Positions 4,050 to 41,985 of a DNA stretch of 64,000 nt are shown one piece after another. Source of the DNA: Thermococcus barossii (GTDB taxonomy: Archaea; Methanobacteriota_B; Thermococci; Thermococcales; Thermococcaceae); the NCBI RefSeq assembly GCF_002214465.1, contig NZ_CP015101.1, forward strand, positions 1,433,013-1,497,012, read 5' to 3'. Numbering within the stretch: the first letter of the stretch is position 1; every line of letters begins with the position of its first letter. The notes under the pieces are model-generated. The model did no database searches, had not been told where the DNA came from, and saw nothing but the letters and a program-made list of their open reading frames with translations. A program made the position numbers and the translations under genes.

Positions 4050-6696
4050 GAAGCTCATAATCAAGGACTTCCGTTCCCACAGGCTCACGAAGGTCAGCTT
4101 CACGAGCGGGATAAACCTCATAGTCGGTCAGAACGGCTCGGGGAAGAGCTCACTCCTCGATGCCCTTCTCGTTGGTCTCTACTGGCCGAGCAAGCCTAAG
4201 GACCTCAAAAAGGAGGACATACTCAGGGTCGACGGCCAGTCCACGGAGATAACGGTGTTCTTCGAGAAGGACGGGATCAGCTACCAGCTCCACCGGAACA
4301 TAACCCGCGGGGTGGCCTTTGCAAAGTACCACGACGGGAGCTCCTGGAAGCACGCCACCGAGACGAGCCAGAAGGCCGTGAGGGACTGGATGGAGAAGCT
4401 CGTTCCGTACGACGTGTTCCTCAACGCGATCTACATCCGCCAGGGAGAGATAGACGCCATCCTTGAGAGCGACGAGAGCAGGGAGAAAGTCGTCAGGCAG
4501 GTTCTCGGCCTCGACAAGTACGAGAACGCCTACAAGAACCTCCTGGAAGTCCGGAAGGAAATCGAACAAAGGATAAAATCAATAGAGGACTACCTGAAGA
4601 GCACGGAAAATCTCGACGAGCTGATCGGGGAGATGGAAAAGGAGCTCTCGGGCGCCCTCAGGGAGATAAACGAGCTTTCACCCCAGATTCCAAAGCTGGA
4701 GAGGGAGCTTGAAAGAGTTGAGAAAAAGCTCGGGGAACTCGATGAGCTGGAGAAAAGCCTGAACTCCCTCCGGCTTGAGATTAAAGAGCGGGAGGGCAAC
4801 AGGAAGAGACTCGAAACCAGGGTTGAGGGTCTGGAAAAGCGCATCGCCGAGGGCGAGGAACGCCTGCACGAGCTGGAGGAGAAGGTGAGGGAGTTCAACG
4901 AGCTCAGGGAGAAGGCGGAGCTCTATCTCAGGCTCTCAAACTTCAGAAAGAGATACACCGACGAGAAGGCGAGAAACGAGAAGCTCGCCGAGAACTACAG
5001 GGCGCAGATTGAGGCGATAGATGAGCGCCTCGCCGAACTGAGTGAACTGGAGAAGCGCCTGGGGGAGCTGGAAAAGGAGAAGAAGGAGCTCGAAAGGAAA
5101 CTCCGGAGACTTGAAAAGGACGCCAAGGCATACGAGGATGCCAGGTCCATCTCGTCCCAGCTTGAGGGCCTCAAAAAACGTCTTAAGCTTTCCAGGGAAG
5201 AGATAGGAGACCTGGCCAAGGAGATCGAGGACGCGAGGAAGAGGAAAGAGGAGATACAGAGGGAGCTGGAGGAGATAAACGAAGAACGCGGAGGCCTGAA
5301 AAACCGGGTCAAGGAGAGGAACAGGGCCATAATGGAGCTGAAGAAGGCGAAGGGCAAGTGTCCCGTCTGCGGCAGGAAGCTGACCGAGAAGCACCGTAAG
5401 GAGATAATCGAGAAGTACCAGGCCGAGCTCAAGGAGGTCTCCCTGTCTCTGAAGGAGCTCGACGAGAGGGAGAGAAAGCTCAGGGGTGAGCTCGTCAGGA
5501 TAGAGAAGGTTCTGAAGAGGGAGCGCGAGCTGATAGCCGCAAAAGAGCTCCTGGACCAGATATCCGGCCTGGAGGAGAGGCTGAAGGAGTACGACCTTGA
5601 GAAGCTCGGGAAGAGGGCGGAGGAATACGAGAGGGTGAAGGGCGAGCTGAACAGACTCGAAGGTGAGCTGGAAAGCGCCAGGACGGAGCTTGAAAAGGTG
5701 AAGGCCCTCGAAAAGAAGAGGACTCTCACGGAGGGGAAGCTCAGATCCGTTGAGGAAAAGCTCAGGAAGCTCGATGACGAGCTCCGGGAAATGGGCTTCT
5801 CTGGGATGGAGGAGCTTGACGAAAAACTTGCCGGCCTTGAACCGACCTACAGGCGCTACCTCGAACTGAAGGGGGCGGAAAGCGAGCTCCAGAGGGAAAG
5901 GAAGAACCTGGAAAGGCTCAGGACGGAACTGGAAGGCGTGAAGAGGGAGCTGGACGAGGAGAACAGGACGCTGAAAAGGCTCACGGAAGCGCTGGCAGAG
6001 AAGGAGAGGCTCTACAGCAGGGAGGAGCACGAGAGGACCAGGGAGGCGTTTACATCGCTCAGGGAGGAGCTGGCCGGGAAGAGGGCCCGGCTGGAGGCCC
6101 TTGAGAGGAAGCGCGACGAGACAATGGAGAACCTCGGGAAGCTGAGGGAGGAGAAGGAACGCAGGAGAGAGAAGGCGAGGGAACTTGACGAGCTCAGAAA
6201 GGCCCGCGAGAGGGTTCAGGAGCTCCGCGAAAAGGTGCGGCGCTACAAGGCCATGCTCAAGGAAGGCGCGCTGGCGAGGGTCGGGGACATAGCCAGCGAG
6301 ATATTCGAAGAGCTGACCGAGGAGAAGTACTCGGGGGTCACCGTGAAGGCCGAGGAGAACAGGATAAGGCTCGGGGTGCTCTACAACGGCAGGGAATACG
6401 GGCTCGGGTTCCTCAGCGGTGGGGAGAGGATAGCCCTCGGCCTGGCGTTCCGCCTGGCGCTGTCGCTCTACCTGGCCGGGGAGATAAGCCTCCTCATCCT
6501 GGACGAGCCGACGCCGTACCTCGACGACGAGAGAAGGAGAAGGCTCGTGGACATAATGCAGCGCTACCTGAGGAAGATACCGCAGGTCATAGTCGTTTCA
6601 CACGATGAGGAGCTGAAGGACGCCGCCGACCGCGTGATAAGGGTCAGCCTTGAGAACGGCGTTTCGGTGGTCAAGGAAGTCGAGCTGGGGGTGTGA
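4039..6696 (+). CDS. rad50: DNA double-strand break repair ATPase Rad50
   Basis: An SMC-like ATPase of 885 residues: Walker A GQNGSGKSS near residue 30, long coiled-coil arms, zinc hook KCPVCGRK near residues 440-447 at the apex, ABC signature FLSGGERIALG, and Walker B LLILDEPTPYLD near the C terminus. Zinc-hook dimerisation tethers DNA ends. I chose ATG 4039 (MRIEKLIIKDFRSH) because GGTGGTGG sits just before it; in-frame GTG codons at 4030 and 4033 are alternatives. It overlaps mre11 by 11 bp. Confidence 0.96.
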   Translation: MRIEKLIIKDFRSHRLTKVSFTSGINLIVGQNGSGKSSLLDALLVGLYWPSKPKDLKKEDILRVDGQSTEITVFFEKDGISYQLHRNITRGVAFAKYHDGSSWKHATETSQKAVRDWMEKLVPYDVFLNAIYIRQGEIDAILESDESREKVVRQVLGLDKYENAYKNLLEVRKEIEQRIKSIEDYLKSTENLDELIGEMEKELSGALREINELSPQIPKLERELERVEKKLGELDELEKSLNSLRLEIKEREGNRKRLETRVEGLEKRIAEGEERLHELEEKVREFNELREKAELYLRLSNFRKRYTDEKARNEKLAENYRAQIEAIDERLAELSELEKRLGELEKEKKELERKLRRLEKDAKAYEDARSISSQLEGLKKRLKLSREEIGDLAKEIEDARKRKEEIQRELEEINEERGGLKNRVKERNRAIMELKKAKGKCPVCGRKLTEKHRKEIIEKYQAELKEVSLSLKELDERERKLRGELVRIEKVLKRERELIAAKELLDQISGLEERLKEYDLEKLGKRAEEYERVKGELNRLEGELESARTELEKVKALEKKRTLTEGKLRSVEEKLRKLDDELREMGFSGMEELDEKLAGLEPTYRRYLELKGAESELQRERKNLERLRTELEGVKRELDEENRTLKRLTEALAEKERLYSREEHERTREAFTSLREELAGKRARLEALERKRDETMENLGKLREEKERRREKARELDELRKARERVQELREKVRRYKAMLKEGALARVGDIASEIFEELTEEKYSGVTVKAEENRIRLGVLYNGREYGLGFLSGGERIALGLAFRLALSLYLAGEISLLILDEPTPYLDDERRRRLVDIMQRYLRKIPQVIVVSHDEELKDAADRVIRVSLENGVSVVKEVELGV

Positions 6697-28330: not shown

Positions 28331-29680
28331 TCAGGCCCTCCCCACCGCCCTCCTCACGATCTCCTCGGTCTTTTCCATCAGCGCCTTCGCTTTTTCCTCT
28401 GTGTGCGCTTCGAGGGTTATGCGCATTATCGGCTCCGTCCCGCTCGGCCTAAACAGAATCCACCAGTCGGCACCCTCTATCCTAACGCCGTCGATGTCTA
28501 TGAGCCTCTCGTAGTCGAAGCTCCTGAGGGCTTCCTCGGCTATGAGCGCCATCGCCCTGGCCTTCTTTTCGTTGGGGCAGGGTATCTTGGCGCGAAGCGT
28601 CACGTAGCGCGGGACTTCTTTAGCGAGTTCGCTCAGCGGGCCGAGCCTGTCGATCATTTCAATGACCAGCGCCCCGGCGAAAATACCGTCCGGCGTTAGG
28701 TTCCACTCCGGTATTATCCACGTCCCGCTCGGCTCGCCGCCGAAGACCCCGCCGTGTCTGGCCAGTTCGTCGGCAACGGCCACATCTCCAACGCGGGTCC
28801 TCACGACCTCACCGCGGAGTGGCCTAACGTAGTCATCGAGGGCAAAACCGGCATCGACGGTAGTAACTATCTTCCCCTTTCCGAACTTCCTCAGCATGTA
28901 GCCGGCTATGAGGCTCAGCATGACCTCATACTCCAGGAAGTTGCCCTCATCGTCCACAACTCCAATCCTGTCCGCGTCGCCGTCGTGCGCTATCCCAACA
29001 TCGGCGCCCATGGCCTTAACTGTCTTGGCCAGCATCGAGAGGCTCTTGGCGTTCGGCTCAAGCTCTCTAACGAAGAACCCGCTCGGGTGGGAGTTGAGGC
29101 TTATAACCCTGTTCCCCAGCTCGCGCTGGAGGTAGGGGCTGAGAACAGAGCCTGCCCCGTTGCCCGAATCGATAACAACGGTGTAGGAATTCTCAAGGTG
29201 AACCATATCGAGGGCGGCTTTTATGTACTCCTCCCTCGGGTCGGCTTTTCTGAGCGCTCCAATCTCGTTCCACGGGGCCTTCCTGAAGTTTCCGGACTCC
29301 AGAATAGCCTCAAGTCTGTTCTCCATCTCGGGGGTGTAGGCCATTCCGTTGGCCTGCCAGACCTTTATGCCGTTGTACTCCGGGGGATTGTGGGAGGCGG
29401 TTATGGTGACGCCGGCATCCGCTTCATAGAGTTTGATTGCAAAGCCGGTAAGGGGCGTGGGCGCGAGGCCTATGTCTATGACATCGACCCCGGTTGAGAG
29501 GAGGCCGCTTATTAAAGCTTGCTTTAACATCTCGCCGCTCGTCCTTGTGTCCATGCCTACGACGACCGTTCCCCCTTCGAGAAACGTCCCGAGGGCCCTT
29601 CCGACGTTGAGGGCGAGCTCCGGGGTCAGCTTTTCGTTGACGACCTCTCGAATCCCGCTGGTTCCGAAGTACTTCCCCAT
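28331..29680 (-). CDS. glmM: Phosphoglucosamine mutase (phosphohexomutase family)
   Basis: 449 residues of the alpha-D-phosphohexomutase family. The phosphoserine loop [13 protein letters not shown] (about residues 95-107), the metal loop DGDADRIG (about 235-242), the sugar-binding GGEPSGT (about 318-324) and the phosphate loop [11 protein letters not shown] (about 415-425) are complete. Archaeal members may also act on phosphomannose or phosphoglucose. ATG 29680 follows GGGTGGTCG; the minus-strand TATA cgttatatccc lies upstream (29722-29732). Confidence 0.88.
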
Positions 29681-29755
29681 CTCGACCACCCGTGAGCGCT
29701 ATGGTGAAAGGTAACGACGGAGGGATATAACGTTTCCGGCAAGTTGGGAACGGCC

Positions 29756-30412
29756 TCAGGGGTCGAACTCAGCCAGCTCGGTTCCGTTACCATCAAGGAG
29801 GCGGAGCACCACGAGGCCATCAAGGAGTCCCTCGAGGTCAGGAACCATCCGCGCGTACTCACCTGGCATCCCGGCCCCCAGGAGGCTCACCTCGTACACC
29901 CCACCCCCTCCCTCGACGATGACCTCCAGCGGGGCATCCAACCGGGAGTTCAGAAAATAATCGAGCACGCTCCGGGCCGTCCCCTCGTCCGGGCCGGAGT
30001 ACCATACCCTGAACCCGCCTCCCTCGACGTAGCGGTACTCGCTCATCTCCGAGGCCAGAACTGTCCCGTCGGGGGAGTCGAGCTGAAGCCTCACCAGCGC
30101 ACCCCCGAACACGTCCTGGGAAAGCTTCGAGGCGGCGAGGACAAGGAAGAGACCGGACTGGATGGGCCCCCTCCAGGGCGAGGTGACCACGACGTTGTAC
30201 ACCCCACCGGCCTTTCCGACGTGGACGTCGGTTCTTCCCGTGGCACCGAGTTGTCCCCCGACGAAGTCCGCCACGCCCCCTGCCTGGCCCTCGGAGATGT
30301 CCCCCGAATAGTGTACCGTGACGTTCCCGGCAGTGAACGTTCTCTCGAACGTGCATCCCCCGGCCACCACCAGCAGGGCCAGGAGTATGACAACGGCGCT
30401 GAGTTCCCCCAT
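29756..30412 (-). CDS. Exported lipoprotein-like protein, 218 residues
   Basis: Not recognised. It has an N-terminal hydrophobic segment ending in a lipobox-like VVAGGC (Cys about 20), so it is probably lipid-anchored outside the membrane. The rest is rich in Gly, Val and beta-type patterns. The stretch SGLFLVLAASKL...GGALVRLQLDSPDGTVLAS resembles, by eye, a stretch in the 30807-31517 product (TGLLYAVAEKAYRAN...VVRVEAYYLGEPIVA), suggesting a shared domain. Last gene of a four-gene exported-protein operon. Confidence 0.65.
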   Translation of the reverse strand: MGELSAVVILLALLVVAGGCTFERTFTAGNVTVHYSGDISEGQAGGVADFVGGQLGATGRTDVHVGKAGGVYNVVVTSPWRGPIQSGLFLVLAASKLSQDVFGGALVRLQLDSPDGTVLASEMSEYRYVEGGGFRVWYSGPDEGTARSVLDYFLNSRLDAPLEVIVEGGGGVYEVSLLGAGMPGEYARMVPDLEGLLDGLVVLRLLDGNGTELAEFDP

Positions 30413-30418
30413 GGCGGC

Positions 30419-30802
30419 TCACTTCTTCACGAGCCTGTATATGCCGACGGAGACTTCGTAGGTTTCCACGTTCTCTGGAGCTTTGTAGTCAATTCTCACC
30501 TGGAAGGGCTGGCTCGAGCCGTAGATGAACTCGCTCGTCTCCGACTCCGTCAGGACGTTGCCGTTCTCGTCGAGGATGGTTATCTTCACCACCGTTCCCT
30601 CGCTGTCCGCGGTTATCTTGTATTTGCCGGGCTCAAGGACGTGCGAAAGGTAGAAGACGTCCCCGCTGACGGTCTCGCTCTTGACCTCGACCGGAACCTT
30701 GTCGTATGCCGTCTCGTAGTAGTACTGCATCCCGAAGATAGCAGCCACCCCGACGAGGAGGAGCAGGAAGAACCCGATTACGAGCTTTTTGAGCAGTCCC
30801 AT
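30419..30802 (-). CDS. Membrane-anchored extracellular protein, 127 residues
   Basis: Not recognised. One N-terminal transmembrane anchor (LVIGFFLLLLVGVAAIFGM) is followed by an extracytoplasmic beta-rich domain with SHVLEPGKYKITADSEGTVV and ILDENGNVLTESETSEFIYG. It lies 6 bp before the lipoprotein gene and 4 bp after the 236-residue gene, so all are surely cotranscribed. Confidence 0.65.
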   Translation of the reverse strand: MGLLKKLVIGFFLLLLVGVAAIFGMQYYYETAYDKVPVEVKSETVSGDVFYLSHVLEPGKYKITADSEGTVVKITILDENGNVLTESETSEFIYGSSQPFQVRIDYKAPENVETYEVSVGIYRLVKK

Positions 30803-30806
30803 TTTC

Positions 30807-31517
30807 TCACCCCCTTTCGATTTTTATGACCGCCGAGGGGTCCTCGATCTCCCCGGCGTGTATTCCAACTATGTCCCCCGCTCCCATCGTCATCGTGACG
30901 CTCCCGTTTTCGGTCAGGTAGGTTATCGAGACGCTCCCGACCCAGGGGGCGTCTTCAAGAACCACCAGCGACATGGCGAAGTAGTCCTTCCAGAAGCCAT
31001 CGCGGTCGGCGAGGTACTCGAGCGAGACAGTGGCGCTCTCGTTCGTGACGGAAACGTCGTGGATTACAACGTCGAAGAGCCCCAGGTCGGTCTCGATCCT
31101 GAACTCTGGCGTTCTTATGTCCTCGAACTCGGCGTTCTCGAAATCGCCGTTTCTAACGGTCAGGGCAACGATGGGCTCGCCGAGGTAGTAGGCCTCGACG
31201 CGAACCACTCCCGAGTGGTTGGCCCGGTAGGCCTTCTCGGCCACGGCATAGAGAAGGCCGGTGAGGTTTCCGTCTACGGCCGGAACGCCGAGGCGGACGA
31301 GGGTCTCGTTCGGGGAGGACGAAACGCTTACCCTTTCCGCGCCGAGCGAGAGGGCCTCGCCCCTCAGGGTTTCAGCGGAGGGGTTATCCGAACCGGGGGA
31401 GCCTTCGGCCTTCTCCCGTAAAGAGTCGATGTCAAAGCTATCGGGCCCAATGTGGCCAGTCGCGTAGAGGTAGCCCCCGAGGAGAAGGAGGAGGAAGAGG
31501 ACGACCTTGCCCTTCAT
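30807..31517 (-). CDS. Membrane-anchored exported protein, 236 residues
   Basis: Not recognised. N-terminal hydrophobic segment VVLFLLLLLGGYLYATG, then a Ser/Asp-rich linker and two beta-rich parts with Asn-X-Ser/Thr sites. ATG 31517 follows GGAGGGGGTAAT and overlaps the stop of the 508-residue gene upstream; a longer reading frame through that gene lacks any signal segment at its start, so I rejected it. Confidence 0.65.
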   Translation of the reverse strand: MKGKVVLFLLLLLGGYLYATGHIGPDSFDIDSLREKAEGSPGSDNPSAETLRGEALSLGAERVSVSSSPNETLVRLGVPAVDGNLTGLLYAVAEKAYRANHSGVVRVEAYYLGEPIVALTVRNGDFENAEFEDIRTPEFRIETDLGLFDVVIHDVSVTNESATVSLEYLADRDGFWKDYFAMSLVVLEDAPWVGSVSITYLTENGSVTMTMGAGDIVGIHAGEIEDPSAVIKIERG

Positions 31518-33040
31518 ATTACCCCCTCCTCGAAGAGCTTGTTGATGTAGAACCTTATCCTCGCTTCCTGATCCCTGAAGCCCTCCTTCGACTGGGCGTT
31601 GAGGGTCTGAACCCTGCGGGACTGCGAGGTCTCCTCGGTCACGTCGCTCACCGTGTTCCGGATTATCTCGCTGTACTTCAGGCCGGCCTTCTTGTAGAGC
31701 ACCGCCCTCTCGGCAGTCTTCCTGAACTCCCACTCGTAGTCCTGCGCAACGGCCTTCTTCACCGCCACCCCCATGGCCTGGATGGCGTCCTCGAAGGGCT
31801 TCGTCAGCGTGGACGACGGGGCGGCGTTCTTCGCGGGGGAAAGCTTGAGCTCCCTCCCCTCGATGCCGCTCATGTCGTTGTAGAGCGAGGCGCTCCTCTC
31901 GTCCACGTGAAGGTCGAGGGCGGTTTTCTTCACTGCATCCTCGCCCTGGAAGAGCCCGCTGTCCTTGAAGGCCTTGACGTAGTCCTTGAAGAGGTTCAAT
32001 CCGGGTGCGTACCTTCCGAGGAGGTCGTTCAGCTTGTCCATCGAGCCGTCAACGACCCTGTCGAGGACGTATTTGTTGCCGTAGTACTTCAGCCTGAAGC
32101 TCAGGGCAGTTCCGCTGGCCTTCCCGTTCCTGTTGATGACCTTGACGAGTTCCCCTTCCGGAGTCTTGATGCGCACCACCTCGATGTTCCCGCCGCTCAG
32201 TCCCTCAAGCTTTCCCAGCGTTTCGTTCATCCTCGCTTTAGCTTCTGGACTGAGGATCACCCCCGGCCTCTCAAAGCCCGAATCACCGTTGTGAGCCTCC
32301 CCAGTTCCACTCGTGGTTGGAGCGGCAACCTCCGAGCCTCCGGACGGGGCACCGGGTCCACCGGTCAGGGGTATCGAGACCTTGTTCCCTGGGATAGTGT
32401 TGAGGTAGTGGTTGATGAGGGCGGGAAGGGCACCCTCGATGTCGCAGGGAAAACCGTCGTAGTAGTAGCCCCTCGCCCGGATGACGTACGGGCCGCTCGC
32501 GACGATATACTCGACCATCGTCTCAAAGCGAATGGACTCATCCGGGTGGCTCTGAACCCAGCTCTCACACCCGGAGGAGAGGCACTCGTAGGTTGCGACC
32601 CTCCTGAAAATCGCCCACACGAAGTCGGACGAACCCCCGGTTTCGTCAATCGTGTAGCGGTAATGGGTCACCGAGTATGGCTCCCCATCGCTGTCCCTTT
32701 TAACCTCATCCTCATCCTTAAAGGAGGCCCACTTTGACAGGACCTCCTCGTAAAAACCCTTCTCTGCGCCTGCATCGTCGAAGTAGCCCATCCAGAGTTC
32801 CGTGTTGTAAACGTCCTGCCTGCCGGGATCCCTGCAGGCGAAGGCGTATTCCGCCAGGGTCGATGCCCCATCGCTTCCCAGCGTCGTGGCCTCCCACCCC
32901 ACCAGCTTTAGATTGAGGGAGGTAAGCTCTGAATCACCCGGGGGTGAGCGCACGTACGGCTCCGTGACCTCTCCACGTGCCAGCATGGGGGCGAGGAGAA
33001 GAAACACAATGAGCACGGTGCAAAGCCTAAGCATCTTCAT
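31514..33040 (-). CDS. Exported protein, 508 residues, first gene of a secreted-protein operon
   Basis: Not recognised. Signal peptide MKMLRLCTVLIVFLLLAPML, then ARGEVTEP. An N-terminal domain (about 30-230) has four Cys (ACRD, ECLSSGC, PCDIE) that could make disulfides outside the cell. A Pro/Gly/Ser/Thr linker (about 235-275) leads to an alpha-helical, charged C-terminal half (about 280-508). ATG 33040 follows GGGGATGGTTGT; an upstream in-frame Met would precede the signal peptide and is less likely. No C-terminal anchor. Confidence 0.65.
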   Translation of the reverse strand: MKMLRLCTVLIVFLLLAPMLARGEVTEPYVRSPPGDSELTSLNLKLVGWEATTLGSDGASTLAEYAFACRDPGRQDVYNTELWMGYFDDAGAEKGFYEEVLSKWASFKDEDEVKRDSDGEPYSVTHYRYTIDETGGSSDFVWAIFRRVATYECLSSGCESWVQSHPDESIRFETMVEYIVASGPYVIRARGYYYDGFPCDIEGALPALINHYLNTIPGNKVSIPLTGGPGAPSGGSEVAAPTTSGTGEAHNGDSGFERPGVILSPEAKARMNETLGKLEGLSGGNIEVVRIKTPEGELVKVINRNGKASGTALSFRLKYYGNKYVLDRVVDGSMDKLNDLLGRYAPGLNLFKDYVKAFKDSGLFQGEDAVKKTALDLHVDERSASLYNDMSGIEGRELKLSPAKNAAPSSTLTKPFEDAIQAMGVAVKKAVAQDYEWEFRKTAERAVLYKKAGLKYSEIIRNTVSDVTEETSQSRRVQTLNAQSKEGFRDQEARIRFYINKLFEEGVI

Positions 33041-33213: not shown

Positions 33214-33999
33214 TTAGGGAGAAGCCTTCCGAAGATTTCTCGCCAGTTCCACCAGTTTTCTGGCTCTTTCACGGGAAACCTCGTTCTCGACCTTGCCCTC
33301 GCGCTTTATTGAGGTGCCGACTATGAAGGCATCGGCGTACTTCCAGAGCGACGGGAGGTTCTCAACGCTCGTCCCGGAGCCAACCACCACCGGCACGGGG
33401 GAGACCCTCTTTGCCAGGGCGAGCTTCTCGATATCAACTGGCTTTCCGGTTGCCTTCCCACTCACAACTATGGCATCGGCAAGGCCCCTCTCGACGGTGT
33501 CCCTTATGGCATCCTCGAAGTCGAAGAAGTGGACCGCGTGCTTGACGTGGACGTCGGCGAAAACCTCTATTCTGCTTGGAAGGAGCTTTCTGAGCCTCGC
33601 CAGCTCGTGGGCGATGCCCTCGATTACGCCCTGGTCTGTGTAAGCTACACCGCTCAGCACGTTCACCCTTATGAAGTCGGCCTTGACGGCGTAGGCTATG
33701 GAGTAAGCGGCGATCCCGTCATTGCGGAGAACGTTTATTCCGAGGGGAACGCTCACCTCATCGCGGATTGCCTTAGCCACGGCAGTAAAGGCCGCGACGG
33801 TGGTTTTATCGACCACCTTTGGAAACGGGACGTCGCCGAAGTTTTCCACCATTACCGCGTCAAAGCCCGCTTTTTCTAACGTCTTGGCGTCCCTCAGGGC
33901 GGACTCGATGACGGCATCAAAGTTCCCGTCGTACAGGTAGGAGCCCGGGAGAGACCTGAGGTGAACCATCCCTATGAGGGGCTTTCTCTCGAAGTCCAT
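33214..33999 (-). CDS. BtpA/SgcQ family TIM-barrel protein
   Basis: 261 residues of the BtpA family: IGMVHLRSLPGS at the N terminus, AVMVENFGDVPF, SVPLGINVLRNDG, and VVVGSGTSVENLP near the C terminus. Cyanobacterial BtpA affects photosystem I assembly, but this archaeon is not photosynthetic, so the role must differ; a phosphosugar or nucleoside-processing enzyme is possible. Monocistronic, reading away from the transglutaminase-like gene. Confidence 0.85.
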   Translation of the reverse strand: MDFERKPLIGMVHLRSLPGSYLYDGNFDAVIESALRDAKTLEKAGFDAVMVENFGDVPFPKVVDKTTVAAFTAVAKAIRDEVSVPLGINVLRNDGIAAYSIAYAVKADFIRVNVLSGVAYTDQGVIEGIAHELARLRKLLPSRIEVFADVHVKHAVHFFDFEDAIRDTVERGLADAIVVSGKATGKPVDIEKLALAKRVSPVPVVVGSGTSVENLPSLWKYADAFIVGTSIKREGKVENEVSRERARKLVELARNLRKASP

Positions 34000-34113: not shown

Positions 34114-37100
34114 ATGGTGGGGCGGAAATACATCGCATTTCTCACCCTCACACTGCTCTCCCTCCTCATTACCTCCGTCGTCCTGGGGCCGGCGCTCATC
34201 GAGGCTCCCCCCGAGACCAAGAGCATCGAGGAACTCCTCTCCCCAAAGCTTCCGCCCGGGAACGAGACCAACGAAACCGGGCCACCGATCGAGGTTCCTG
34301 TTTCTCCCCGCTTCGTTCTCCTGGTAACCGGCGCGGCCCACACACACTACCTCAGACTCAACGTCTACACCGACTACGTGGACGGAAGGTGGCTGACCAG
34401 GAACGCGACGGTGGTGCCGGGCAACACCATCGCCCCCCCTGAGATAAAAGTCCCCCACCACAGCGAAAGGGACAGGATCACGGTCACCTCTTTCCTGCCC
34501 CTCAGCGGAAACCTGTTCACGTCCCTCTACACGACCCGCGTTGACGGTGCCGGGGCCGAGGCGGTTCCGGAATACAACCTTTTCCGGACGGATCTGAACG
34601 TTACATCATACTCATTCTCCTCCATCAGCTACACCTTCGAGTGGCCCTACCTGCTCAACCTGACCGCCGGGAACATGACTGAGTACCTGTCCGCCCCCAA
34701 CGAGACCCGGCTCGCCGAGCTGGCCGGGAGCATAACCCTCGGCTCGCTATCGGACTACGAGAAGGCCCTCAGAATAGCCAGATACCTGGCGAACAACTAC
34801 AGGCACGTGGAAAACGCCACGCCCCCGGCCAACACGGACAGGCTGAGCTGGTTCCTGTTCGAGTCAAAGGAAGGGAGCTCCTACGATTTCGCCTCGGCCT
34901 TCGTAATCCTCGCCCGTCTGAGCGGCCTTCCCGCGAGGCTCGTCGAGGGGGCCTACATAGATGCCGTCCCCCAGACCCAGGTCGTGACCGAGAGGGACAG
35001 GCACTTCTGGGCGGAGGTTTACTTTAACGGGGCCGGGTGGCTGACCTTTGACCCCCTGCATCCCGACCCGAACGTTTACGTGCCGTTTGAGCTCAAAGTT
35101 TATCCCCCCAAGATGACGGTAAATCCCGGCTCGTCCGGAACCGTCACGGTGATGTTTGAACGCGTTGCGAGCGGAACCAACTCAACGGTCACAGTTGAGA
35201 TTCCCTCCCTCGGGAGGATAGCCCTCATCAACGGGTCCGGGGTGTACGACATCACCGTCGGCCCCTTTGATGGGCCCGGCTATTATCCCGTCCTCGTCAG
35301 GGCATCTACAGATGCCGGAGCCCCGGCCTCACTGCTCCAAATTACCGCGGTAACCGTTCCCGGGGACATAACCGTCATACCGGACCAAGCAGCTGTTGGA
35401 CTGCTGAAGGGAAGCCAGGTTACTCTTGGACTTCCGGTGCAGGGCGCCACACAGGACGTGAGGCTCAGCACAACATCCCCCCTCGTTGAAACGTGGTCCT
35501 GGTGGGGGACACCGGGAAGCGAGACCGGCATATACGTCAGGCTGGTCTCACCCCAGGAATACCCCCTCGGATGGCACATCGTGAACATGACCGTTATGAG
35601 CGGTTCAAAGGTATATCCGGTTCATATGCCGGTCTTCGTCATGGAATCAACCTCGGTCAGTGTGGACGTACCGAACACGCTCACCGCGGGCGATTCGCTC
35701 ACAATAAACGGCACTGTGAGGGGAATTCCCGCAGGAGGAGCGCCAGCCACCGGAGAGGTCGCGGTGTTCCTGAACGATGGAAGGAGAAACATCCTGATAG
35801 GCCACGGGAACCTATCAAACGGAAGTTTTTCGCTCCCGGTCAGGATTCCGGGTAATCTGAAACCGGGGACGAAAAGCCTTGCGGTGTACTACATCGCCCC
35901 CCTGGGGTACCCCTACATCTCCTCAACCACCACGCGAGTCGTCATGGTAAAGGGGCTGGCAAAGTTCTCGCTGCCGGAACTGATACTGGCCAGGCCAGGA
36001 AACGTCACAATCGTAGGAAGGCTCGTCGATGGGGCCGGAGAGCCGATAGCCAACGCCACCGTGAGTTACTACCTCGACGGGAAGCCCGTCGGGAACACGA
36101 GCACCCGCACCGACGGAGGGTTCTCCCTGAGGCTCGGCATCCCCGGGATAGAGGAGCACGTCCTGAGCCTGAGGTATCCGGGGAGCTCAAACTACTCACG
36201 GGCATCCATTGACGTCACCGTTGTGACCGTTAGCCTGAAGGTACCGGAGAAAGTCACGGGTGAACTCGGAAAGCCCATCAGGATAAGTGGGGAAATCATC
36301 GGGATTGAAAACGCCAGCCTTAAAGCCTACGTGTTCCCTGGCAAGACGTACACCGCCAACGTCGTCAACGGAAGCTTCGATTTCACGATTGAGCCCTTCC
36401 AGACCGTCGGCGAGAGGACGGTGGAGCTGAGGCACGGTGGCAGGATTCTCAAGAGGATAACCGTCGAGGTGGTCTCCCCGGTTAGGATAGAACTGCTGAC
36501 GTCGGAGGCGAAGGGCGAAAAAACCGCCCGGCTGGAGTTCCGGGTTGTGAACTCGGTCAACGACCCCGTTAGCGGTATCCACCTCAACGTCAGCGTGAAC
36601 GGCCTTGAGATGCGCGCAATGACCAACGGCTCAGGTATAGCCGTCCTTGAGATACCCGTGCCCGAGGAAAGAACCAACGCCACCGTCATCGTTACCTTCG
36701 GGGGCTCCACCTACTACCTGCCCGCGAGCGGAAGGTTTCACGTGATAATCTCCAAAAAGCGGAAAATCCCCTGGCTTTACATCGGCTTGATAGCGGCAAT
36801 CGGCCTAGCACTCGCCAGATATCGGCTCGTAAGGAGAAAACCTGCTGAAAAAAGGCAAGAAAAAATCCTGAAGATAATATTCAACAACGGCATACCCCTG
36901 TTTCAGGAGGGCGAGACGATGGAGATAAGCGTGGAGTGCGACGGTGAACCGGAGCTGTACGTCGACGGCAAACCTTTCGGAAAGGGGCGGGACTTCAGGC
37001 TGACCCTTACCCTTGGAGACCACACGATAGAGGCCCGCTGCGGAGAGCTCGTGGAGAGCGCGAGGGCCAGGGTGCTTCCCAGCTACAACGACGCCGTGGT

Positions 37101-37341
37101 GGAGTACTACGAGAGGTGCTTCCTTCCCTGGGCGAAAAGCTCCGGAGTGGAGGTGGACGAGCTGACGCCCAGGGAGATAGCGAGGGCTTTAACGGACATG
37201 ATGTACCCCTGGGAGCCGGTGGAGACCCTCACTGAGATATTTGAGAAGGCCAAGTACAGCGGGGAGAGGGTCTCAAGGGACGAGTTCATACGCTTCTACC
37301 GCTCGGTGCTCGAAGTGATAGGGGGTGGCTGTGTTGTTTAA
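34114..37341 (+). CDS. Large extracellular transglutaminase-like protein, nucleophile Cys missing
   Basis: 1075 residues. N-terminal signal/anchor; a transglutaminase-like core (about residues 200-325) with GLPARLVEGAYI, HFWAEVYFNGAGWLTFDP; then several Ig/Big-type beta domains; a transmembrane helix (IGLIAAIGLALARY, near 895) and a cytosolic DUF4129-like tail (LTPREIARALTDM, near 1020). The usual G-x-C motif reads GSSYDFASAF, so Ser replaces Cys while His and Asp remain. First gene of a five-gene operon with MoxR and DUF58. Possibly a surface scaffold or peptide-binding protein. Confidence 0.78.
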   Translation: MVGRKYIAFLTLTLLSLLITSVVLGPALIEAPPETKSIEELLSPKLPPGNETNETGPPIEVPVSPRFVLLVTGAAHTHYLRLNVYTDYVDGRWLTRNATVVPGNTIAPPEIKVPHHSERDRITVTSFLPLSGNLFTSLYTTRVDGAGAEAVPEYNLFRTDLNVTSYSFSSISYTFEWPYLLNLTAGNMTEYLSAPNETRLAELAGSITLGSLSDYEKALRIARYLANNYRHVENATPPANTDRLSWFLFESKEGSSYDFASAFVILARLSGLPARLVEGAYIDAVPQTQVVTERDRHFWAEVYFNGAGWLTFDPLHPDPNVYVPFELKVYPPKMTVNPGSSGTVTVMFERVASGTNSTVTVEIPSLGRIALINGSGVYDITVGPFDGPGYYPVLVRASTDAGAPASLLQITAVTVPGDITVIPDQAAVGLLKGSQVTLGLPVQGATQDVRLSTTSPLVETWSWWGTPGSETGIYVRLVSPQEYPLGWHIVNMTVMSGSKVYPVHMPVFVMESTSVSVDVPNTLTAGDSLTINGTVRGIPAGGAPATGEVAVFLNDGRRNILIGHGNLSNGSFSLPVRIPGNLKPGTKSLAVYYIAPLGYPYISSTTTRVVMVKGLAKFSLPELILARPGNVTIVGRLVDGAGEPIANATVSYYLDGKPVGNTSTRTDGGFSLRLGIPGIEEHVLSLRYPGSSNYSRASIDVTVVTVSLKVPEKVTGELGKPIRISGEIIGIENASLKAYVFPGKTYTANVVNGSFDFTIEPFQTVGERTVELRHGGRILKRITVEVVSPVRIELLTSEAKGEKTARLEFRVVNSVNDPVSGIHLNVSVNGLEMRAMTNGSGIAVLEIPVPEERTNATVIVTFGGSTYYLPASGRFHVIISKKRKIPWLYIGLIAAIGLALARYRLVRRKPAEKRQEKILKIIFNNGIPLFQEGETMEISVECDGEPELYVDGKPFGKGRDFRLTLTLGDHTIEARCGELVESARARVLPSYNDAVVEYYERCFLPWAKSSGVEVDELTPREIARALTDMMYPWEPVETLTEIFEKAKYSGERVSRDEFIRFYRSVLEVIGGGCVV

Positions 37342-38323
37342 GGTCAACTGGGGGAGGATCGCAATATACGTCGGTGCCCTAACGCTCACCTACGCCCTTT
37401 CCACCCAGGTGGATGCACTGAGGGGGCTCACGCTTCCGGCGACGGTTCTGGTGGCGTTCCTGACCATTGGGGAAGTTATCCTCGCCCTCAGGGGGAAGAG
37501 CTGGGCGTTTATGATGGGACTGCTGGGGGCCACCCTCGCGGCACTCTCCATCCCGGTGGAATGGAAGGTTCCGGCCTCCATGACAGTACTCGGCGGGGGA
37601 ATTGCCCTCATGGCCCCAAAACTCAGAAAACACTCCCGCTTCGCCAGGGGGCTGGGACTGCTGCTCGGCCTCTACGGACTCTCGGGGATTCCCCCCTTGG
37701 ATGCGGTGGGGAGCGTCTTCAGCTACGCCGGCCTTTTCCTGTTCCTCGGCTACTCCGTGGCAGAGCTCGGGGAGAGGTACCCCTGGACCGAGCCGGTTGA
37801 GAGAAATCTGCTCGGACTCGGTGCCCTCGGTGCAATCCTCGGCCTCTACGCGGCAGTTAGAGGGACTCTAAGCGAAAGCCACCCGGAGCTCGTGTTCTAC
37901 GGGGAGTGGCTGGTTCTTCTCCTCGGCGTCATCACGGCGGGAAGCATGGTCTACTCGTACATCAGCGAGAAAGACCCCGAAAAGTACCTGCTCTCCCAGT
38001 GGAAGAAGCACGAGGCAAAGACCGTGGAGAGACTCGGTCCAGAGCTCGCGGAGGCCAGCAGGGCGGTTGAGGACTTCGTGGTCAGGGGCAGGAAGGGGCC
38101 GCTTCTGACCTTCATAGCCTACTACGGCTCGCGGCTCTTCGATGACAGGAAGCGCTTCGGAGCGCTCGTGGAGAAGATAGCCGACTACAGGGAAAGGCAG
38201 ACCTCCAGGCTGACGCCGCTCTGGATAAGGCACGCCTACGGGAGGAGGGAGCTTGAGAGGAGGATTAGAATCGTTGAGGAAGTTTTTGAAGAACTCAGAA
38301 CACTCATGGGGTGGGAGTCATGA
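37331..38323 (+). CDS. Polytopic membrane protein of the MoxR/DUF58 operon
   Basis: About 330 residues; not recognised beyond context. Residues ~5-200 hold six or seven hydrophobic segments (e.g. FMMGLLGATLAALSIPV, LVLLLGVITAGSMVYSY). The C-terminal ~110 residues are cytosolic and helical with many Arg/Lys/Glu. Start is uncertain: GTG 37331 or TTG 37334 after GGGGGTGG; GTG 37325 also is in frame. It overlaps both neighbours, so coupled translation is likely. Confidence 0.65.
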   Translation: MLFKVNWGRIAIYVGALTLTYALSTQVDALRGLTLPATVLVAFLTIGEVILALRGKSWAFMMGLLGATLAALSIPVEWKVPASMTVLGGGIALMAPKLRKHSRFARGLGLLLGLYGLSGIPPLDAVGSVFSYAGLFLFLGYSVAELGERYPWTEPVERNLLGLGALGAILGLYAAVRGTLSESHPELVFYGEWLVLLLGVITAGSMVYSYISEKDPEKYLLSQWKKHEAKTVERLGPELAEASRAVEDFVVRGRKGPLLTFIAYYGSRLFDDRKRFGALVEKIADYRERQTSRLTPLWIRHAYGRRELERRIRIVEEVFEELRTLMGWES

Positions 38324-39291
38324 TGGAGATTAAGGAGGCGTTTGAAACCCTCAATGCAATCGTTGACAGGATTTCCGACGTGTTTGTTGGCAATGAGATC
38401 GTTGTCAGGAAGACTCTAGCTGCTGCTCTTGTTAACGGGAATGTTCTTTTTGAGGATTATCCTGGCTTGGGAAAAACGTTGCTGGCGAAGGCCTTTGGAA
38501 AAGTCTTGGGCTTGAAGTACACGCGCGTCCAATTCACTCCAGACTTACTGCCCGCGGACATTCTCGGCACGAAAGTCTGGCGTCAAAACCTGGGAACTTT
38601 CGAACTCATTAAAGGCCCAATCTTCACGCACGTGCTTTTGGCTGATGAAATCAACCGCGCACCACCAAAGACTCAGAGTGCCCTCCTGGAGGCGATGGAG
38701 GAGCGGCAGGTGACGATTGAAGGTGAAACATTCACGCTGGAGAGGCCTTTCTTCGTCATCGCCACACAGAATCCAATCGAGTTCGAGGGGACTTACCCCC
38801 TGCCAGAGGCTCAACTGGATCGTTTCCTGCTCCGCCTGCGCGTGGGCTACCCGAAGAGTTTGGAGGATGAGGTGGCCATTCTTGAGGCGCGCTTGAACTG
38901 GGGGAAGGACGACCCGACGGTCGACATGAAGGCTTTAATTGACCGCGAGACCTTCGTGAGAATGCAGGAGCTTGTTGAAAAGGGCATCTTCATCAGCAGG
39001 GACTTGCTGAGGTACATTGCTGAACTCGTGCGGAATGCCCGCGCTGATGAGCGGGTTGAAGCCGGACCGAGTCCTCGCGGGGGCATTGCGTTGATGAAGG
39101 TTGCGAAGGCTAATGCATTGCTTGAGGGGAGGGATTTTGTTTTGCCGGATGATGTGAAGGCTTACGCGGTTGATGCTCTCGCTCACAGGATTGTGATTAA
39201 GCCGGAGTACGCTTTTGAGGGTGTGAGTGGTGAGGAAATCGTCCGCGAGGCTCTGAAGAAAACACCCGTACCCAAAGGCGAAGAAAAATGA
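38320..39291 (+). CDS. MoxR-family AAA+ ATPase
   Basis: 323 residues. Walker A EDYPGLGKTLLAKAFGK (near 46-62), Walker B HVLLADEINRAPPKTQSALLEAMEERQV (near 105-132), sensor ATQNPIEFEGTYPLPEAQLDRF. MoxR ATPases act as chaperones with VWA or DUF58 partners; the partner DUF58 gene follows by ATGA overlap. Base and codon use differ clearly from all neighbours (lower GC, CGC/GCT/GTT-rich), suggesting replacement or transfer of just this gene. Confidence 0.93.
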   Translation: MMEIKEAFETLNAIVDRISDVFVGNEIVVRKTLAAALVNGNVLFEDYPGLGKTLLAKAFGKVLGLKYTRVQFTPDLLPADILGTKVWRQNLGTFELIKGPIFTHVLLADEINRAPPKTQSALLEAMEERQVTIEGETFTLERPFFVIATQNPIEFEGTYPLPEAQLDRFLLRLRVGYPKSLEDEVAILEARLNWGKDDPTVDMKALIDRETFVRMQELVEKGIFISRDLLRYIAELVRNARADERVEAGPSPRGGIALMKVAKANALLEGRDFVLPDDVKAYAVDALAHRIVIKPEYAFEGVSGEEIVREALKKTPVPKGEEK

Positions 39292-40541
39292 AGAGGAGCC
39301 TGATGGGATACGTCCTCTGGGCCCTGATCCTTGGAACGGCCTTCCTCTCGCCGGGGATGGTGGGTCTGGCCATAGTGCCCCTCTCCCTGCTGGCCCTGGC
39401 GATGCTCGTTGACCCCCCAAGAGGGGTGAAGGTGAGGAGAAAGCTCTCAAGGCACGAGATAAGTCTCGGAGAGGAGGTCGAGATTAGGGTAGAGGTCACG
39501 GTGGAAAAGGGCCTCGGTCTCGTCGTCGTCAGGGACAGGCTTCCAAAGAACGTCGCCCTCACCGCCGGAAACAACGTGGGGGTCTTCTTCAAGGGACTCA
39601 AGCCGCTGAGGAGGAGCTACACCTACAGAATAAGGCCCGTACTCCGGGGCTTTTACACGCTGCCGAGGAGCGAGGTGACCACGAGGAACCCGCTGGGCAC
39701 GAGGTACATCTGGGGGCTGTACGGTGAGGAGCTCAGACTAAGGGCCGTTCCAAAGGTCGTCAGGGCCGTTCCAATAGCAGAAACCAGAAGGAAGGCAAAG
39801 ATAAGCGTCCCGGAAACCAGCTTCTCGATAAGGGGGCCGATATCGACCGATTTCAAGGAGATCAGGGACTACCAGACCGGTGACCCGGTAAAGCTCATAA
39901 ACTGGAAGGCCACCGCGAGGATGGGACGGGTGCTCGTCAACGAGTTCGAAAGGGAGGGCAAGAAGACCGTCCTCTTCATAGTGGACGCGAGGGAGGGCAT
40001 GAAGATTGGCCCCGAGAGCGAGAGCCCGTACGAGCACGCCATGAACCTCGTCGCATCCATGGCACATCGCTTCCTGAGGAAGGACTATCACGTAGGCCTC
40101 TACCTCCTCGGCACGAGGAAGTTCCTCCCGCCGGCCACGGGGCCGAGGCAGCTCCACACGATTGTGAAGACGATGATGGACTTTGAGAGGGTTCGGACGG
40201 GAGAGGAGAGCTTTGCCGATGCCGTTGAGAGACTGAAGAGGATACTCGTGCAGTACAGCCCCCTCGTCATCTACGTCTCCAACGTCCTCGAAAGGACAAG
40301 CGGCGAAACCAAGAGGGGGGTTCTCACAGTAATGGCCGTTCATAGGGGCAAAACCCGGCCTGTGATGGTGGACATCTCGGTCTACCCTGCCCTGGACCCG
40401 AAAACCGGCACCCTTATCGAGATGGAGAAGAGGGCCATAATCAGGGAGCTTGAGGGCACCGGGGCATACGTCGTTCGCTGGCTTCCGGGAAGGGAGGAGA
40501 TTGGAGGGGTGCTGAGCAAGCTCCTGGGGGAGATAAGATGA
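39288..40541 (+). CDS. DUF58 domain protein
   Basis: 417 residues with two N-terminal hydrophobic segments, a beta-rich middle, and the DUF58 core at about 195-330: FKEIRDYQTGDPVKLINWKATARMG, VNEFEREGKKTVLFIVDAREGM, which is a VWA-like fold. DUF58 proteins are the regular partners of MoxR ATPases. The ATGA overlaps at both ends support a single operon. Confidence 0.9.
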   Translation: MKRSLMGYVLWALILGTAFLSPGMVGLAIVPLSLLALAMLVDPPRGVKVRRKLSRHEISLGEEVEIRVEVTVEKGLGLVVVRDRLPKNVALTAGNNVGVFFKGLKPLRRSYTYRIRPVLRGFYTLPRSEVTTRNPLGTRYIWGLYGEELRLRAVPKVVRAVPIAETRRKAKISVPETSFSIRGPISTDFKEIRDYQTGDPVKLINWKATARMGRVLVNEFEREGKKTVLFIVDAREGMKIGPESESPYEHAMNLVASMAHRFLRKDYHVGLYLLGTRKFLPPATGPRQLHTIVKTMMDFERVRTGEESFADAVERLKRILVQYSPLVIYVSNVLERTSGETKRGVLTVMAVHRGKTRPVMVDISVYPALDPKTGTLIEMEKRAIIRELEGTGAYVVRWLPGREEIGGVLSKLLGEIR

Positions 40542-41359: not shown

Positions 41360-41406
41360 GGGAAGGTTAATATATGGCGCCGCGTATATCCATTCCGGTG
41401 AGAAAG

Positions 41407-41985
41407 ATGACCGAGAAATTGCCTAAGGCAGCCGGGAAGGTTCTCGAACCCGGAGAGGAGGTTCTCTTCACAGTCAGGAAGAAGGTGAGCCTTGAGAAGC
41501 CCAAGTGGCTTTTGATAACCGACAGGAGGATAATATACCTGGATGAAAAGGTTCTCGGAAGGTACGAGGTGAAGGCCATCCCGTACCAGAAGCTGGAGGA
41601 GGTTAAGGTCGAGCTGGGGGTTGTGTCCTCGGAGTTTCTCATAAAGGGTGAGGAGAACATAAGGCTCAAGCTCGGCTGGATGAACAAGGAGCAGGCCAGG
41701 AAGACAATAAACGCCATAAAGGACGCCCTCAACGCGATAGCCATCGAGCCGGTGACCATAGAGGTCAAAAAGGGCCTCACCCACGAGACGTGGAAGCTCA
41801 AGAAGCCGAAGGAGCTGGTTAGCAGGGTCGTTCCCGGGGGAACCACCGTACAGCATCAGCCCGCGGTGGAAAAGAAGGAAGATCCCATCGAGAAGCTCAA
41901 GAAGCTGAAGGAGCTCTACGACATGGGCGTGATAAGCCAGGAGGAGTACGAGGAAAAGAGAAAGAAGCTACTCGAACAGATTTAA
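41407..41985 (+). CDS. PH-like domain protein with C-terminal SHOCT motif
   Basis: 192 residues. The N-terminal ~110 residues resemble a bacterial PH domain (EPGEEVLFTVRKK, LLITDRRIIYLDEKVLG, IPYQKLEEVKVELG). The last ~30 residues are a SHOCT helix pair (EKLKKLKELYDMGVISQEEY). SHOCT motifs usually mediate oligomerisation. TATA gttaatatatgg (41367-41378) and GGTGAGAAAG support ATG 41407, not the upstream ATG 41374. It ends in a 4-bp overlap with the convergent GH13 gene. Confidence 0.75.
   Translation: MTEKLPKAAGKVLEPGEEVLFTVRKKVSLEKPKWLLITDRRIIYLDEKVLGRYEVKAIPYQKLEEVKVELGVVSSEFLIKGEENIRLKLGWMNKEQARKTINAIKDALNAIAIEPVTIEVKKGLTHETWKLKKPKELVSRVVPGGTTVQHQPAVEKKEDPIEKLKKLKELYDMGVISQEEYEEKRKKLLEQI

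Follow-up and report, generated by a model that had tools for sequence, protein, structure and literature searches.

We describe a four-gene operon, A-B-C-D, on the minus strand of a 64,000-nucleotide stretch of the Thermococcus barossii genome (NZ_CP015101.1, positions 1,433,013 to 1,497,012; hereafter the window, whose own numbering is used below). From comparison with related genomes, we consider it an even call that A-D represent one version of a hypervariable, exchange-diversified cassette for an exported recognition or adhesion complex in Thermococcales. An earlier note on this DNA had read the operon as unrecognised exported proteins that look like one surface complex; what it missed is that the unit appears, across the genomes compared, to be a hypervariable cassette at a fixed chromosomal site.

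The comparison covers 81 loci, namely the window and 80 stretches of related genomes, read with our own codon-usage gene caller. Both flanking genes are visible in order in 57 of the 81; several loci are cut by draft contig ends, and the caller overlooked at least one C gene (in G081). Loci were sampled from genomes with and without matches, and shares among them are thus not frequencies. Relatives are counted at E <= 0.001, and genomes (G), loci (L) and further protein families (f) carry our own numbers.

Gene layout and export signals

The operon and its flanks comprise the following features.

31514..33040, minus strand: gene A, 508 aa, class-1 form, with a signal peptide predicted by sequence (open reading frame [ORF], hydropathy, relatives)
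32255..32971, minus strand: residues 24-262 of A, the variable N-terminal part, which contains Cys 69 and Cys 199 (boundary by core motif; identity and cluster data)
31517..32254, minus strand: residues 263-508 of A, the class-1 C-terminal core, which is conserved, probably helical and without transmembrane segment (alignment, identity, hydropathy; helical content from a very poor model only)
30807..31517, minus strand: gene B, 236 aa, of class-1 form, with an N-terminal anchor and two predicted alpha-beta-beta-alpha-beta-beta units (hydropathy, alignment, model)
30419..30802, minus strand: gene C, 127 aa, with an N-terminal anchor and a probable beta-sandwich domain (hydropathy, sub-threshold family matches)
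29756..30412, minus strand: gene D, 218 aa, putative lipoprotein, two repeated halves (Cys 20, hydropathy, hhalign)
33214..33999, minus strand: upstream flank, BtpA-family gene (PF03437, E 6e-107)
28331..29689, minus strand: downstream flank, phosphoglucomutase/phosphomannomutase-family gene (PMM; Pfam)

The four genes lie within 29756-33040, with a 4-bp overlap of A and B (ATGA) and gaps of 4 bp between B and C and 6 bp between C and D, in agreement with the tight spacing that the earlier note had given (gaps of 6 and 4 bp, one overlap). Its claim that each product carries a signal or anchor also holds: every protein has a single strong N-terminal hydrophobic segment, with a best 19-residue Kyte-Doolittle mean of 2.39 (A), 1.92 (B), 2.81 (C) and 2.56 (D), compared with 1.59 and 1.14 for the two flanking enzymes. 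The lipoprotein that it named corresponds to D, putatively so by sequence, where a lipobox-like Cys at residue 20, preceded by VVAGG, is invariant across 17 aligned sequences. The 508-residue protein, A, does have Cys residues beyond its signal, four in number (69, 153, 158 and 199); a disulfide between Cys 69 and Cys 199 is likely, as both are kept in 22/22 sequences of the cluster to which the window's N-domain belongs. Among 61 genomes, relatives of A were found in 16 and of B in 15, and because relatives of each of the four genes occur in other genomes, A-D are no chance ORFs.

Two classes of A, each followed by its own B

The C-terminal core of A is of two kinds, typically about 240-250 aa long in class 1, to which the A of the window belongs, and about 330 aa in class 2. 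The two are without similarity, cross-class comparison giving eight matches at E <= 1, the best among five listed at E 0.50, and hydropathy finds no transmembrane stretch in A cores. B likewise differs by class: the class-2 type bears aspartate-rich, EF-hand-like repeats (sub-threshold), and an extra C-terminal domain occurs in class-1 and class-2 types alike. B stands directly after A on the same strand in all 47 readable cases (49 A genes in the 81 loci), at a spacing of -4 bp in 30/30 class-1 pairs and -8 bp in 15 of the 17 class-2 pairs. No cross-class pair was seen among typed pairs, one truncated B being untyped.

The N-terminal part of A is the variable one. Over 120 class-1 pairs, mean identity was 33% for the N-part and 62% for the core, against 88% for PMM and 86% for BtpA; over 21 class-2 pairs the corresponding values were 31%, 75%, 85% and 82%. 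These pairs, which are non-independent, come from those of the first 41 loci that have A and both flanks. In seven close pairs the ratio of nonsynonymous to synonymous divergence (dN/dS) stayed below 1 in every comparison, and each of the seven had a higher value for the N-part (0.19-0.33) than for the core (0.06-0.21). Related N-parts also cross between cores, in a comparison that left out the four of the 49 A genes that could not be split at the core motif: the N-part of G021 (class 1) is 54% identical over 305 aa to that of G029 (class 2; E 6e-101), and that of G085 (class 2, a draft assembly) clusters with 21 class-1 N-parts and is 51% identical over 223 aa to that of G090.

A fixed site with changing content

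Profile searches of 94 genomes of the family matched class-1 A in 36, or 30 strongly once the partial or weak matches in G085, G013, G015, G111, G102 and G072 are set aside, and class-2 A in 20, 18 of them with the core and two (G021, G030) in the N-part only. With these partial and weak rows removed, A of either class is present in 46/94 genomes; C matched in 55, D in 31 and BtpA in 91. Class-1 A, the only profile sought in 21 further genomes of the phylum, had no match there, and scanning genome contigs with A as query gave a single locus.

The usual position of the cassette in Thermococcales is between BtpA and PMM. Some of A-D are present in 43 of the 57 loci with both flanks, and 14 have none of them, 12 of these lacking any called gene. 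Between the flanks we find A in 30 loci, C in 39 (40 with G081), D in 22, f19 in 19 and f27 in 9, in 26 arrangements as called, some differing only in doubtful small ORFs. In cassette-free genomes PMM directly follows BtpA, across an empty junction of 2-119 bp in seven genomes; the junction without a called gene measures 67-665 bp in G111, G114, G117 and G022, and three of the 12 gene-free loci (G111, G114, G117) have cassette pieces just beyond the flanks. Different gene content at one site between conserved flanks, a feature of replacement flexible genomic islands, is what these loci have.

The optional genes include f19, a soluble PH-like protein with a sub-threshold bPH_3 match, and f27 and f38, large exported propeller-like proteins encoded beside the cassette. 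These two lie in L109 (7466-10291) and L086 (8844-10556); f38 has SBBP repeats above the Pfam cut-off, f27 is without SBBP, and both have a sub-threshold CGP-CTERM tail.

Signs of exchange between species

Synonymous divergence (dS) of A lies far below that of BtpA in three pairs (0.08-0.10 against 0.47 in G000/G004, 0.11 against 0.86 in G014/G012 and 0.14-0.15 against 0.51 in G076/G081), and less markedly below it in three further pairs. Identity along the chromosome shows high-identity tracts in three chosen pairs. Between the window and G004, identity is 93-98% at 26.5-33.0 kb where aligned, 86-92% at 33.0-34.5 kb, 65-80% at 34.5-40.8 kb and 76% at 42-52 kb; D is unaligned in this comparison, and a search for D in G004 found none. 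G014 and G012 are 89-100% identical from the BtpA end into PMM and 80-84% just upstream, and G076 and G081 are 95-97% identical over A and 84-91% in the adjoining sequence. One of the tracts ends near the BtpA end and inside PMM, as recombination in the flanks might leave it, in genomes that are mosaic elsewhere too. By these comparisons, the tracts point to recent between-species exchange.

Family searches and predicted structures

A-D are indeed unrecognised, as the earlier note had put it: none has a match above the curated cut-off in Pfam or NCBIfam, and nothing of weight was found in PADLOC, PHROGs or PDB sequences. Scanning aligned relatives of A-D returned scattered weak family matches only. 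C has weak PHROG matches (E 0.005 and 0.01) to entries without known function, and its relatives have sub-threshold beta-sandwich matches, to Wzt_C in 15/27 and to Gmad2 in 10/27. We judged three matches to PDB sequences to be due to chance: the A profile to MJ0577 (E 0.0018 over 48 positions), the D profile to the lectin BP39L (E 0.0004, no stretch passing alone) and the C profile to a chain of the leukocidin/hemolysin family (E 0.07). The B profile matched no PDB sequence. No relative turned up in viral contigs with the A or the C profile, nor in phages or plasmids with that of A.

Two members of the operon had appeared to the earlier note to share a domain. The comparison does not bear this out for B and D (hhalign probability 0.7%, no similarity by BLASTP); D is instead internally duplicated, its two halves matching at an hhalign probability of 98.8% (E 8e-17), the sole significant pair when seven parts (the halves of B and of D, C, and the N- and C-parts of A) were matched against one another. 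The order of helices and strands looks alike in B and D, an impression by eye only.

Structures of A and B were predicted from the window sequence and one partner sequence (L078, Thermococcus sp. S144_40). B gave a moderate model (pLDDT 69.1) with two alpha-beta-beta-alpha-beta-beta units. Of the two membrane-anchored beta proteins announced by the earlier note, C is supported only through its sub-threshold beta-sandwich matches, and B is mixed alpha/beta in this model. Foldseek places CamS and cAM373 pheromone-precursor lipoproteins on top for the B model (PDB 3n2q, 4hn3, 2qx2; E 1.9e-4 and 9.7e-4, probability 1.00), and in a second aligner both units align with CamS over 173-179 residues (Z 6.9-7.3, rmsd 4.6-8.5). 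TM-scores with CamS are only 0.23-0.40, however, on a model of pLDDT 69, and by sequence B has no Pfam match at E <= 10, nor is CamS among the families matched by 23 B members. Residues 26-100 or so of the B model also resemble the ring-building motifs of FliF RBM2 and EscJ (Z 7.1-7.7, rmsd 2.1-2.3 over 67-71 residues), although Z below 8 may indicate a common arrangement, as the aligner notes, and ZnT and MamB/MamM domains score nearly as high (6.3-7.4). We draw no function from these likenesses of a predicted model.

Comparison with known systems

Two known kinds of variable locus resemble the cassette. VARTIG modules of Thermococcales (Makarova et al., 2021, PMC8416519, here from excerpts) have a hypervariable C-terminal Ig domain with a common DNNxxxGG tail and an RNase III-like gene (arCOG05836) as neighbour. 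Like the cassette, they are described in those excerpts as a Thermococcales-restricted, membrane- or secretion-linked, patchy and highly variable module, with variants exchanged in situ between species and the hypervariable domain located in a large first protein. Unlike in the VARTIG modules so described, the N-terminal part varies here and the C-terminal core is conserved (62% against 33% identity in class 1, 75% against 31% in class 2), A is strictly followed by a partner gene, B, and the locus is bounded by BtpA and PMM. The tail motif D[ND]NxxxG[GD] is absent from the last 15 residues of A, B, C and D of the window, the proteins in which it was sought. The large VARTIG protein contains several Ig (CARDB-like) domains; among 23 class-1 A proteins, CARDB had no match at E <= 0.1, and Glucodextran_B matched weakly in two (E 0.023).

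In replacement flexible genomic islands (Lopez-Perez et al., 2014, PMC4033161, likewise from excerpts), gene sets for exposed structures are replaced in situ by homologous recombination, which is thought to alter virus sensitivity. Fixed flanks are common to both, and here high-identity tracts span the cassette. The islands of those excerpts distinguish strains of the same species, whereas the genomes compared here are treated as separate species, and the present locus is a protein cassette of 3-10 kb that can be wholly absent. By analogy, and as far as these excerpts of the two papers describe their systems, VARTIG appears closest by behaviour and replacement flexible islands by exchange mode. 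We found no description of the cassette in the open-licence PMC literature, a search that lay outside the supplementary gene lists of PMC8416519, which possibly overlap with it.

A proposed recognition complex and its alternatives

We propose that the site of action of all four proteins lies outside the membrane, because of their export, anchor and lipoprotein signals: by sequence, A would be exported and have no further membrane segment, B and C would be anchored N-terminally and D held as a putative lipoprotein. The conserved C-terminal core of A would dock on its cognate anchored B, as the pairing suggests, and so hold A at the cell surface, and the N-terminal domain, demonstrably the variable part, would be displayed outward, perhaps stabilised by the disulfide, as a recognition or adhesion surface. 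C and D, together with the optional f19, f27 and f38, may serve as accessories. Comparison of genomes suggests that versions are exchanged in place between species, with related N-domains on two unrelated cores; the conserved BtpA and PMM genes could act as homology arms, and viruses or nearby cells that recognise the surface may supply the selection that maintains exchange, as has been proposed for replacement flexible islands. It is possible, if doubtful, that the cassette is in fact a two-component archaeal system of surface reception or kin recognition. Its interchangeable N-domains would then be carried by two unrelated cores, either core having a membrane partner of its own, and complete versions would pass between species at one fixed position with housekeeping genes on both sides.

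Several observations weigh against the proposed recognition complex. The class pairing of A and B may reflect mere linkage, since the A core adjoins B, and A-B pairs occur away from the site in seven genomes (G101, G098, G116, G102, G117, G111 and G030). The structure prediction for A gave no usable model (pLDDT 36.6). Positive selection on the A N-domain, which we considered, is unsupported, as no comparison gave a dN/dS of 1 or more. The close pairs behind the tracts and the dN/dS values had been picked for alike cassettes, and in one of them, G073/G082, dS is higher for A (0.53-0.58) than for BtpA (0.40), which speaks against recent exchange there. High similarity also extends to other stretches, 91-100% over 0-4.5 kb in G014/G012 and 78-95% at 5-15 kb between the window and G004, and the genomes are therefore mosaic beyond the cassette.

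The single surface complex of the earlier note fares best for A and B, adjacent in 47/47 cases and class-matched where typed; the case is weaker for C, present in 28/30 loci with A between the flanks (29 with the G081 copy, placed by profile search) and also without A in 11/57, a further point against the proposed complex, and for D, present in 19/30. An unlikely but not negligible reading makes A-B the functional unit and C and D independent envelope proteins that share an insertion site and promoter. C is alone in 5/57 loci and D in 1/57, D is missing from 11/30 loci with A, and in G116 the site holds only D, with A-B-C located elsewhere, as a loose assembly would predict. Its expectation of an independent C sits poorly with the company that C keeps with A at the site and with its position downstream of A-B off-site too (G101, G098, G116, G102); as an account of C and D it remains fair.

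Two further readings seem to us rather improbable, and about equally so. In one, the cassette would mediate inter-cell antagonism of the polymorphic-toxin type, A being an exported effector whose N-domain binds the target and whose core kills, and B, perhaps with C or D, providing immunity. A patchy, variable, exported cassette with a strictly paired neighbour gene fits this picture, and the VARTIG authors suggest likewise for their analogous module in the excerpts of PMC8416519. The hallmark of polymorphic toxins, however, is a variable C-terminal toxin domain with cognate immunity, and here the C-terminal part of A is the conserved one, with B as class-bound as the core. The cores lack transmembrane stretches, and no toxin, nuclease or immunity family, nor any other known one, reaches its cut-off; Imm3 matched weakly (E 0.068) in a single B protein out of 23. 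Conservation at the C-terminus, together with the absence of toxin or immunity families above cut-off, weakens the antagonism reading, although a toxin of an unknown family might escape such searches. The other would have an envelope complex capture or take up a polymer, peptide or metal, with diversity arising from differing substrates and not from recognition by viruses or cells. Exported and lipoprotein parts, the optional propeller-like partners and the sub-threshold EF-hand-like repeats of class-2 B are in its favour, yet no family of transporters, binding proteins or hydrolases was recognised among A-D, transporters are missing from the lists of genes at the site (in which many neighbours are unannotated), and the cassette is frequently absent.

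Further observations at and near the site

Remnants of genes occur at several loci. L085 (G030:C24) has pieces of a second BtpA gene at about 2070-2481 and 5918-6694, one with a stop, near a complete copy, perhaps an insertion or exchange scar. At L114 (G013) and L099 (G015), the class-1 A profile matches only partly at the site, which suggests decay of A. In L115 and L117 (G075, G080), where A-B are missing, a 79-aa exported ORF (f57) precedes C; its tail looks, by eye, like the C-terminal domain found in some B proteins, and it may be a remnant.

The neighbourhood on the other side of BtpA varies as well. An operon divergent from BtpA (34114-40541, plus strand) encodes a 1075-aa transglutaminase-core protein with Ig-like domains, a MoxR-type ATPase and a DUF58 protein; it is mosaic, 65-80% identical to G004 beside the 93-98% tract, and other genes take its place in other genomes. 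A protein with bPH_3 and SHOCT domains is encoded at 41374-41985 (plus strand), and in several other genomes its relative f10 is the divergent gene immediately upstream of BtpA.

Implications

If the proposed recognition cassette is real, it would be a second hypervariable surface module in Thermococcales after VARTIG, with the other end variable, a strictly paired neighbour gene and a definite place on the chromosome. Genetic work has reportedly been done in Thermococcus kodakarensis, and a naturally empty site combined with the genetics of this species would make a clean test of the cassette's role possible. Such a module would bear on self/non-self discrimination in archaea and on their escape from viruses.

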